From: Nitratiruptor sp.
GTDB lineage: Bacteria > Campylobacterota > Campylobacteria > Campylobacterales > Nitratiruptoraceae
Direction: 5' to 3'
Length of the DNA stretch: 51,288 nucleotides
Assembly (NCBI GenBank): GCA_027036935.1
Contig: JALWCE010000151.1
Coordinates: 1 to 51,288, forward strand
Part shown: in pieces, positions 8,350 to 11,640 of the stretch
How the letters are laid out: every line of letters begins with the position of its first letter
Position numbering within the stretch: the stretch's first letter is position 1
Notes under the pieces: generated by a model
What the model saw: the letters and a program-made list of their open reading frames with translations, nothing else
Database searches by the model: none
Told to the model about the DNA's origin: nothing
Translations under genes and position numbers: made by a program

Positions 8350-9657
8350 ATGCGATACACACTGCCAAGGATTGTGAGTGAGAGTGAGATCAAATTTATC
8401 ACCATCGAAGAGGTCAAGCGTGCGCTTGAAGAGAACGAGTTTGATACATTGATGCAATTATACCATCTCTTCTTGCATCGCGATCTCAAAATCGCGGAAG
8501 GGATCGAAAAAAGAAGAGATGCCATTTTGGCGCTGGAGTGGAGCGTAGAGGGTGGTGGGAAGTTTATGGAGAGCTTTTTAGAGCGCTTCAATCTCCAAAG
8601 CCTGCTGCGCCACCTCACAGACGCCATCTACTACGGCTATGCCATCATCGATATAGCCTGGGATGTGCAAGATGGCTACCTCTATCCCCATATCAAAAAG
8701 ATCCCTCCCTTGGCTTTGCATTATGATAGCTTGGATGAGGAGTTCTACTTTTTTAGCAAAGAGTCTCAAAAGATACCCCTCAAAAACATCCAAAACAAGA
8801 TCCTCTTTTACAACCACACAGCAAGCGAGCAGATCCACAATGAAAATCTGGCATACAATATTCTCTTTTATGCCATTCTCAAGCACACCGCCATTACATT
8901 TAATATGCAATATTTCGACTCTCTTGCCATTCCGCCGCTTATCGTCAAAGGCAGCGAACTGGACAATGAGAAAAAGGTCCAAGAGCTTATCGATGAGATC
9001 GTGAGGCTCAAATCCAACTCCTTTGGGGTCTTTAACGACACCATCACCATCGAGAGCCTCAAAGCCTCCACCCAAGCGGACTTTCTCTCACTCATTCGCT
9101 ACTTTGATGATCTCATAGCCCAGTATATCACGGGCGGGGTGCTCACAGGAGATGTCAAAGGGGGCAGCTACGCCCTTGGCAAAGAGCAGGCAAAGAGGCT
9201 CAAAGAGAAAATCAAAGGGGATGCGAAGCTTATCGAAAGCGCCATCAATAGCTTTTTGGCGATGGTGCTGAGGCGCAATGTTGCAAATCCCCAGCCTGTG
9301 CAGTTTCGCTTTTTGCTCGATGACAAAGAGGATCGCAAAGAATTAGCCACGCTCATCGCCACGCTCTCCCAAAGCGGCTATGAAGTCCAAAGCGGCTACA
9401 TCGAAGAAAAACTTGGTATCCCCATCAAAAAAAGAGCCATAGAGCACAACCGCGCCAAGGCGCTCAGCTACCAAGAGGCGCAATTGCAAAAGCTGCCGGA
9501 TGTGGAGGGCATTGAAGAGGTGCTCAAGATCCTCTCACAATGCTCAAGTTTTGAAGAGGCGCTAGCACGCATAGAGCGCCTGGAGAATCCAAAGCTAGAA
9601 ACCGCCCTTGAACGCCTCATCTTTGCAAACTCATTACTAGGAGCACTAGAAGAGTGA
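8350..9657 (+). CDS. portal protein (Mu gp29-like, DUF935)
   Basis: 435 aa; EKRRDAILALEWSVEG, GGSYALGKEQ. Confidence 0.9.
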   Translation: MRYTLPRIVSESEIKFITIEEVKRALEENEFDTLMQLYHLFLHRDLKIAEGIEKRRDAILALEWSVEGGGKFMESFLERFNLQSLLRHLTDAIYYGYAIIDIAWDVQDGYLYPHIKKIPPLALHYDSLDEEFYFFSKESQKIPLKNIQNKILFYNHTASEQIHNENLAYNILFYAILKHTAITFNMQYFDSLAIPPLIVKGSELDNEKKVQELIDEIVRLKSNSFGVFNDTITIESLKASTQADFLSLIRYFDDLIAQYITGGVLTGDVKGGSYALGKEQAKRLKEKIKGDAKLIESAINSFLAMVLRRNVANPQPVQFRFLLDDKEDRKELATLIATLSQSGYEVQSGYIEEKLGIPIKKRAIEHNRAKALSYQEAQLQKLPDVEGIEEVLKILSQCSSFEEALARIERLENPKLETALERLIFANSLLGALEE

Positions 9658-10871
9658 GCCTAGCAAAAGATATAGAGCATATCATCAGCTTCAAACTCTT
9701 GCCAAAAGAGGCGATAAGGTATCTAGAGCAAAAGGGGTATAAACTTACTTTCAACTACCAAGAGATGATGCACGAAGCCCACCACAAGGCTTTTACCGTA
9801 GCCAAAATCACCCGCCTTGATCTTCTTTCAGACATCAAGGAGTCTTTGCTCAAGGCTCTCAAAGATGGCAAAAGCTTTGCCGCTTGGAAAAAGGATATTG
9901 TGCCCATTTTGCAAAAGAAGGGGTGGTGGGGCAAAGTGGAAGCAAGCGATCCCAAAACGGGCGAAGTCAAAACGATCTTTGTAGGCAAAAGGCGTCTTAA
10001 GACCATCTTTTATACCAACACCCGCGTGGCCTACCAGGTGGCAAAAGCCAAGAAGTATTATAGTGATCCCAATGTAGCCTATCTGCGTTATATCGCCGTG
10101 CTAGATCAAAAGACCCGCCCCAGCCACAGAGCCCTACACGGCACCATCTTGCCAAAGGATGATGATTTTTGGCGCACCCACTATCCCCCAAACGGCTGGA
10201 ACTGCAGATGTAGAGTCCGAGCCGTCCCCGCCCACAAAAAAGTGGAGCCCACCGACAAAAACACCCTTCCCAAAGGCGCCGTGGATCCCGACTGGGCATA
10301 CGATGTGAGGGAGGGGAGGTTTTTTGATGATTTTCAAGATGATGTATGCATCGATGGAAACAATGCAAAAAGAAAGTGCAAAGCCTATATTCTAAAAGAT
10401 CAACCGACATTCAAAGACTATAACCTTCCAAGTATCAAAGATATTCAAGATTTACCAAAAGCTCCGCCATTATTGAAAAAAGCAAAAACGAAAAAAGAGG
10501 CTTTTGAGAGATTGAAAAAAGAGATCTTACAAGATCGAAGCGAAATCATCATAAAAACTCCAGTAGGTGATGTGTTGATAGAAGAGAATGGGTTAAGGCA
10601 TATTTCAAAAGCAAATAGAGAGCAATACGCAAAATTTATCATACCCACTTTGCGTGAGCCGGATGAAGTGTATCAAACAAAATATAGCGACAAAAAGAAG
10701 AGATACCATTTTTTCAAGTTTTTTAAAATCAAGAATAGAGCCGCTTTTAGCGTTGTAAGGATCAATAGAGACGGGAGTATTTTTGTGACTTTTTTTATTC
10801 CCGATAGCTTGAAATATATCGATGAAAGAAGAGTCGGTATTTTACTCCATCCGTCTGGGGCTATCCCGTAA
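9654..10871 (+). CDS. MuF/SPP1 gp7-like head morphogenesis protein with C-terminal PBECR-type nuclease-like domain
   Basis: 405 aa; MuF motif LRYIAVLDQKTRPSHRALHGTILPKDDDFWRTHYPPNGWNCRCRV; C-terminal NGLRHISKANREQYAKFIIPTLREPDEVYQTK. Confidence 0.8.
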   Translation: MSLAKDIEHIISFKLLPKEAIRYLEQKGYKLTFNYQEMMHEAHHKAFTVAKITRLDLLSDIKESLLKALKDGKSFAAWKKDIVPILQKKGWWGKVEASDPKTGEVKTIFVGKRRLKTIFYTNTRVAYQVAKAKKYYSDPNVAYLRYIAVLDQKTRPSHRALHGTILPKDDDFWRTHYPPNGWNCRCRVRAVPAHKKVEPTDKNTLPKGAVDPDWAYDVREGRFFDDFQDDVCIDGNNAKRKCKAYILKDQPTFKDYNLPSIKDIQDLPKAPPLLKKAKTKKEAFERLKKEILQDRSEIIIKTPVGDVLIEENGLRHISKANREQYAKFIIPTLREPDEVYQTKYSDKKKRYHFFKFFKIKNRAAFSVVRINRDGSIFVTFFIPDSLKYIDERRVGILLHPSGAIP

Positions 10872-11102
10872 GAGACACTCCCTCTTACGGAAGAGCCGGG
10901 CCTAAGGCGCCCTGTATCGGGCTTGTGCCATTGGCGGGAGTATCGCCATATCCCGGCTCATCCCCTCCTTGGGATGGGAAAGTTGGGAGTAGTTTGGGGC
11001 TTTGCATAGGCTGCCGACCAGCGCCCCCCATCCAAGCAGATAGCCAAAATGGAACGGGTTGAGAGTGGGTTACCGCCCTGGTAGAAGCATCGCCTCCCAC
11101 TC
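10868..11102. ncRNA. candidate structured non-coding RNA / structured intergenic region
   Basis: Several perfect stems: GTAAGAG/CTCTTAC, GAGCCGGG/CCCGGCTC, CATCCC/GGGATG, GAGTGGG/CCCACTC; GC-rich, no convincing ORF. Confidence 0.45.
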
Positions 11103-11172
11103 AGGCTTTGGCTCCTACCCAATCTTTTGGCACATATCTGCCTTGCAGTAATTATACCACAAAGGAAAAACT

Positions 11173-11640
11173 ATGAGCTTTGAGATCAAAGTCAAACTCA
11201 ATGGCAATATCACCGAAGAACTCACCAAGCTACAAGAAAAGGTGCAAGATCTCACACCTGTTATGCGCCAAATCGGCTATACTCTTATAGATATTGTTGA
11301 GCAAAATTTTGAAACGGAGAGCTTCTTAGGACGCCCCTGGAAGCCACTGGCTGAGTCCACCAAACGCCAAAAGGCAAAAAGAGGGTATGAGAAGATCTTG
11401 CAAAATAGAGGCACATTGGCTGAGAGCATCGACTTTGTAGCCACCAAAGATAAGCTCATCTTGGGCACAAATGTGGAGTATGCCGCTATACACCAGTTTG
11501 GAGGAGATGCGGGCAAAAACCATCGAGCCCACATCCCAGCCAGACCCTTTTTGCCAATAGATGAAAATGCCACTATGCCTAAAAAAATCGAAGATGAAAT
11601 CTTGGAAGCGGTGGAGTTTTATGTTAAAAAGGTTATCTAA
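11173..11640 (+). CDS. phage virion morphogenesis protein (Mu gpG-like)
   Basis: 155 aa; GRPWKPLAESTKRQKAKRG, HQFGGDAG, IPARPFLPI. Confidence 0.85.
   Translation: MSFEIKVKLNGNITEELTKLQEKVQDLTPVMRQIGYTLIDIVEQNFETESFLGRPWKPLAESTKRQKAKRGYEKILQNRGTLAESIDFVATKDKLILGTNVEYAAIHQFGGDAGKNHRAHIPARPFLPIDENATMPKKIEDEILEAVEFYVKKVI

Follow-up and report, generated by a model that had tools for sequence, protein, structure and literature searches.

The gap between a MuF-type minor head protein gene and the next head gene, gpG, in the 51,288-nucleotide stretch of Nitratiruptor sp. DNA analysed here (the window) contains a predicted structured RNA of approximately 280 nucleotides, most likely encoded on the minus strand, and our comparisons make it probable that this RNA gene specifies an immunity factor (antitoxin) for the PBECR2 ribonuclease of the neighbouring MuF protein. 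The same layout is found in about 60 Mu-like prophage loci of the Campylobacterota and Pseudomonadota. More cautiously, we favour the view that these loci represent a new and widespread immunity class, in which RNAs of structured or tRNA-like form, read from the other strand of the head operon, would neutralise phage-delivered MuF ribonucleases, be swapped together with the toxin tips as cassettes, and be retained by bacteria as toxin-less genes.

The MuF-gpG gap and its predicted RNA

The MuF protein of the window combines a Phage_Mu_F domain (Pfam, E 9.5e-23) with a C-terminal PBECR2 domain (E 1.3e-19), and its tail retains the conserved His and Arg of the PBECR2 family. The MuF domain adjoins the portal gene and carries a variable C-terminal toxin domain, the arrangement by which MuF polymorphic toxins are recognized. 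The identification of the toxin as an endoribonuclease and the assignment of the BECR fold are Pfam-based, and comparison of an AlphaFold model of the toxin (pLDDT 77) with solved structures in Foldseek gave no confident match. PADLOC found nothing. As the sequence-only reading had noted, the gap, which extends from the MuF-PBECR2 stop (10871) to the gpG start (11173), is without a credible ORF; a coding region was rejected as the identity of the gap, and there is no credible plus-strand ORF for an immunity protein directly 3' of MuF. The sharp jump in composition described in that reading was recovered as well, with the GC content rising from ~0.33 upstream to 0.56-0.60 within the gap. The features of the locus are as follows.

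8350-9657: Portal_Mu, which precedes MuF and gpG
9654..10871, plus strand: MuF minor head protein with C-terminal PBECR2, a predicted toxin (Pfam)
Residues 286-399 of 405 of the MuF protein: PBECR2 nuclease domain (Pfam)
10866..11144, minus strand: predicted structured RNA, ~280 nt, three stem-closed units, proposed immunity RNA array
11036..11142, minus strand: RNA unit A
11036-11042 with 11135-11141, minus strand: closing stem of unit A, GCAGATA/TATCTGC
11043-11049 with 11125-11131, minus strand: extension of unit A, GCCAAAA/TTTTGGC
11080-11088 with 11111-11119, minus strand: arm of unit A, GGTAGGAGC/GCTTCTACC
11063-11069 with 11096-11102, minus strand: pseudoknot of unit A, GAGTGGG/CCCACTC
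10972..11033, minus strand: RNA unit B, closing stem GGATGGG/CCCATCC (10972-10978 with 11027-11033)
10866..10959, minus strand: RNA unit C, closing stem GAGCCGGG/CCCGGCTC (10893-10900 with 10952-10959)
10866-10874 with 10882-10890, minus strand: end hairpin of unit C, CCGTAAGAG/CTCTTACGG
11159-11151, minus strand: extended -10 promoter TGGTATAAT, directed away from gpG and overlapping the gpG leader
11173..11640, plus strand: gpG (Phage_tail_S), the next head gene (Pfam, E 1.6e-30)

Every stem that had been listed from the letters alone is present in the gap: GTAAGAG/CTCTTAC, CATCCC/GGGATG, GGGGC/GCCCC, the unit C closing stem, which encloses TGGCG/CGCCA and GCCC/GGGC, and the unit A pseudoknot, which encloses TACC/GGTA. 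Folded as single-stranded RNA, the gap is more stable than every one of 100 dinucleotide shuffles when read as the plus strand (z -2.8) and than 99 of 100 when read as the minus strand (z -2.9). In unit C, two 7-nt loops, ATACTCC (10937-10943) and GGAGTGT (10875-10881) on the minus strand, are fully complementary with one G-U pair; all seven pairs form on the minus strand only, and the two loops are possibly kissing loops. By eye, the three units are alike in layout only and have no obvious sequence in common. The structured region proposed earlier is thus real, with its placement revised: the RNA, predicted to start near 11144, extends from the promoter at 11151-11159 back to the MuF stop codon, its 3' end being an estimate since a clear terminator was not found in the window, and the evidence given below points to the minus strand.

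Rfam, at gathering and at relaxed thresholds, returned only chance matches for the region, so that a known RNA family, one of the outcomes that could have overturned the original proposal, was not found. No homologue was detected in a DNA search of phages and plasmids, and a class-wide DNA search yielded, besides the window itself, only chance matches of 17-43 nt. ARAGORN predicted no tRNA in the window or in most relatives. A complete tmRNA gene lies elsewhere on the same contig (33602-33974 of the window, minus strand; tag peptide VNNTQYRPAYAVAA).

The same head operon is present in one close relative, G006. Identity between the two is 86% in the MuF domain and 87% in gpG, with 53-54% in the nuclease; at the RNA, the end of the gap (11036-11149, unit A) is 86% identical, and its first part (10869-11035, units B and C) is missing from G006. 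The nuclease and the proximal RNA units therefore differ as a block between conserved flanks. Within unit A, all 30 pairs of the closing stem, extension, arm and pseudoknot are retained in G006; two pairs are altered on both sides, and two are altered on one side with pairing retained (G-U/G-C) on the minus strand only. An absence of covariation in homologues, named at the outset as a refuting outcome, is contradicted for the window module by these changes, on a comparison of two sequences, G006 being the only close relative.

Strand, promoter and RNA types in related prophages

Across the 41 Campylobacteria loci in which a gap separates MuF from gpG, the sequence just upstream of the gpG start has a sigma-70 -10 box directed away from gpG. 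In the 36 non-redundant loci, TATAAT occurs on the minus strand in 25 (shuffles: mean 3.2, maximum 8) and TGnTATAAT in 18 (shuffled mean 0.23), as opposed to 2 and 0, respectively, on the plus strand. Two loci (L064 and L084) have a perfect TTGACA-17-TATAAT; the -35 region of the window promoter is weak, with no convincing box. Terminator-like hairpins were found on the minus strand in 25 of 55 gaps and on the plus strand in 9. Fold energy was uninformative as a strand test over 52 loci (mean z -1.58 for minus, -1.60 for plus). Taken with the unit A and unit C pairing, these features place the RNA gene most likely on the minus strand, as a predicted independent gene with its own promoter opposite the head operon.

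The RNAs of the related loci are tRNA-sized, with units of 60-120 nt that are mostly single per locus. Two types can be told apart from the rest, one having a closing stem with kissing-loop arms and the other a tRNA-like shape with a T-arm; the RNA of the window is among the remaining ones. The first type is best represented by the PBECR2-A loci of Pseudomonadota (L146, L147, L152, L154, L160, L161 and relatives), in which the RNA has a closing stem and two kissing-loop arms and usually ends in a U-rich stretch. Our model R1 of this family yielded an alignment of 11 distinct sequences, and here covariation, proposed at the outset as a check, proved strong: 21 of 33 pairs show compensatory changes, and the covariation score was 0.446 as compared to 0.221 for shuffled alignments (reached in 0 of 500), with slid controls at or below 0.125. 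Kissing loops of 4-7 bp can form in all 11 sequences (p 0.0005), and the excess of G-U over A-C cells (41 vs 11) favours the minus strand. The window RNA does not match R1, and has only position, promoter and general architecture in common with it.

For the tRNA-like type, an acceptor-like stem with a T-arm was found on the minus strand in 15 of 56 loci (shuffled mean 1.2) and T-arms on the plus strand in 2 of the 56; many RNAs of the class, including that of the window, have no T-arm. An Rfam search with the RNAs of 42 loci gave no family match, only sub-threshold matches and three true tRNAs in L084, whose genes (1297-1543) adjoin one prophage copy. The closest parallel to the array of the window is the gap of a Helicobacter pullorum prophage (L038, 4107-4570), with about three tandem structured units. 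Seven loci (L143, L133, L135, L137, L122, L142 and L164) carry another PBECR2 subtype, with the Arg but no His at the first site; their gaps hold a short RNA, followed in several by a strong minus-strand terminator.

Association of the RNA with the toxin domain

The RNA accompanies PBECR2 tails that are predicted from alignments to be catalytically intact. Loci with the RNA retain the conserved Arg, and those of type A also the His, whereas two PBECR2 loci without the RNA (L167 and L041) lack the conserved Arg. The gap is absent from loci with a short MuF tail (L048, L121, L130, L134, L172) and from those with a nuclease tail judged from the alignments to be degenerate (Mu L100, JBD30 L101, L159, L163, L167, L168, L041). 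In Mu and JBD30 there is no room for it, as the F and G genes overlap by 4 and 1 bp, respectively. The nuclease-like domain of the Mu MuF protein is described as inactive by Iyer 2017 (PMC5512222). No named phage with a PBECR2 A or B nuclease was found in INPHARED.

When the MuF tail is of another kind, the gap is occupied differently. With metallopeptidase-like (HExxH) tails (L105, L112, L125, L132, L151) and ADP-ribosyltransferase-like tails (L141 by Pfam, L050 by sequence resemblance only), a plus-strand ORF fills the gap, with a ribosome-binding site in six of the seven, as would be anticipated if immunity were conferred by a protein. The slot behind the toxin would therefore hold a protein gene for metallopeptidase or ADP-ribosyltransferase tails and an RNA gene for nucleases.

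Among 56 loci, picked for having a gap, 35 of 49 pairs with similar RNAs are also similar in the toxin, against a base rate of 93 in 1540; for pairs with similar gpG and unrelated toxins, the RNA is common to 1 of 25. The correlation between toxin and RNA persists when gpG is controlled for (Mantel p 0.002), although the linkage of such neighbours could be partly passive. RNA type appears to follow toxin type, but not strictly: L037 and L082 have near-identical nuclease domains and different RNAs. In L080 and L084, a second RNA lies beside a short toxin-tip remnant, and this remnant is of the toxin type with which that RNA is paired at another locus (L071); displaced immunity determinants would be expected in such a setting.

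A search of 399 Pseudomonadota genomes with R1 gave 11 matches in 8 genomes, 9 of which adjoin MuF-PBECR2 and/or gpG genes; one locus that at first seemed an exception (G461/L118) carries the RNA by this search. The other two matches (L185 and L188), seen in a single genome (G481), are toxin-less chromosomal copies 865 bp apart (contig C155, 8597-8698 and 9462-9562). They have promoter-like sequence and T-runs and flank a 196-aa ORF that matches nothing in Pfam. KaiC and sensor-kinase genes lie next to them, and a search of the surroundings showed neither a toxin nor a head gene; the same genome also holds a prophage cassette (L146). Wider R1 searches in the same order gave no new loci. Copies of this kind fit an immunity gene and would be difficult to explain if the RNA were a regulator acting in cis or served in packaging.

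Proposed function, alternatives and known systems

Of the interpretations offered in the sequence-only reading, the best supported is that the RNA acts as an antidote to the nuclease-like domain next to it, and an RNA belonging to the head operon is not upheld. In a lysogen, with the head operon silent, the RNA would be transcribed from a sigma-70 promoter of its own, and would fold into tRNA-sized units in which a closing stem carries kissing-loop or T-arm-like arms. It may then bind the nuclease as a substrate mimic and block it, in the T-arm class perhaps by mimicry of tRNA. This would protect both the lysogen and the phage-making cell from MuF-toxin, be it of their own making or delivered by injection from related phages. 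The toxin tip would be exchanged together with its RNA as one cassette, with old RNAs retained, and insertion of a new toxin-RNA cassette ahead of such a retained RNA could give rise to arrays like that of the window.

It is unlikely that the minus-strand promoter instead drives an antisense regulator that pairs with the head mRNA so as to tune expression of MuF or gpG in a type I-like manner. The promoter abuts the gpG leader and the RNA, being encoded opposite, is necessarily complementary to the mRNA across the MuF-gpG gap, both as antisense control would have it; against this, the two toxin-less copies are remote from every head operon, compensatory changes preserve a structure that an antisense duplex does not need, and the RNA is absent where the nuclease is degenerate though the operon is unchanged. 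We give slightly less credence to a role as cofactor, guide or cargo, in which the RNA would form a ribonucleoprotein with the nuclease, perhaps packaged, and direct or enable its activity instead of blocking it. The strict co-occurrence of RNA and intact nuclease domains and the co-exchange of toxin and RNA are also expected for such a role, but toxin-less copies and displaced RNAs suit protection better than activation, and other MuF toxins have an ORF in the same slot.

It is very improbable that the gap encodes a plus-strand structured RNA of the head operon, such as a gpG 5' leader, a processing signal or a packaging RNA. The plus strand folds well too, and the phi29-type pRNA is a precedent for a packaging RNA. 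However, the minus-strand promoter statistics, the G-U bias and the minus-strand T-arms argue against it, as does the absence of a gap in Mu and JBD30. The earlier suggestion of a late or packaging-associated RNA read with the head operon was rejected: the RNA gene lies on the opposite strand under a promoter of its own, is missing from those two phages, and goes with the toxin domain, not with the packaging genes. Least probable of all is a degenerate tRNA gene or tRNA-related phage cargo unrelated to MuF, for which T-arm and acceptor-like stems, one undefined tRNA given by ARAGORN in L065 and a weak tmRNA match speak, and which we rejected given the lack of any Rfam tRNA match (the true L084 tRNAs score 67-75 bits), the many RNAs without a T-arm and the linkage to toxin type.

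With these alternatives weighed, the best explanation by analogy is an RNA antitoxin that resembles type III toxin-antitoxin systems in principle and is organised differently. As in ToxIN, CptIN and TenpIN, the proposal is one of direct inhibition of an endoribonuclease by a structured and often pseudoknotted RNA, and the window and L038 have several units in a row. In a type III operon, the toxin gene is preceded by short RNA repeats and separated from them by a terminator (PMC5086642), both being served by a single promoter. The RNA considered here is instead downstream of the toxin, on the opposite strand and with its own promoter; its units, of 60-120 nt and mostly single, are not short tandem repeats, and the toxin, a PBECR family member, forms the C-terminal part of a virion protein.

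Temperate phages have been described whose MuF polymorphic toxins are matched by immunity proteins (Jamet 2017; Apk2/IapK/Aph1; PMC5576092, PMC12226406). The loci studied here share with them the toxin at the MuF C-terminus, the exchange of cassettes and an immunity determinant in the next slot, which in the metallopeptidase-like or ADP-ribosyltransferase members is likewise an ORF; for nuclease tails, unlike in those reports, the slot appears to hold an opposite-strand RNA gene. The same nuclease domain fused to MuF is found among the PBECR polyvalent proteins of Iyer 2017 (PMC5512222), and the Mu copy, described there as inactive, belongs to a phage without the RNA gap; the available text proposes targets such as mRNA or CRISPR RNA and names no RNA partner. 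A literature search that covered few subscription journals found no description of RNA immunity for MuF toxins.

In type VI secretion and contact-dependent inhibition systems, displaced, toxin-less orphan immunity genes are kept for protection. The displaced and toxin-less determinants seen here are comparable, except that the determinant would be an RNA. If the proposed function is correct, control of phage polymorphic toxins is not confined to proteins but extends to RNA, and this would account for the missing immunity ORF beside the nuclease-bearing MuF genes of Mu-like phages. For RNA antitoxins, a gene on the opposite strand with its own promoter would be a new layout, and tRNA-like folds and kissing loops would be new shapes; toxin-less RNA immunity genes would be predicted in bacterial chromosomes. 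The poorly understood role of MuF nucleases would become directly testable by co-expression rescue and, if confirmed, phages would be seen to shield their hosts from such toxins with RNA, not protein.

Additional genes lie between the RNA and gpG in some prophages. In Helicobacter-type prophages, a 262-aa ORF is inserted there (L037, 4312-5100; L056, 675-1463; L083, 1844-2632), with a Cys-rich motif CFxCPKQSKKSL and, by eye, perhaps a resemblance to PAPS reductase. In L053, the nearest PBECR2 relative outside the genus, the same position is taken by a 77-aa zinc-ribbon-like ORF (1271-1504).
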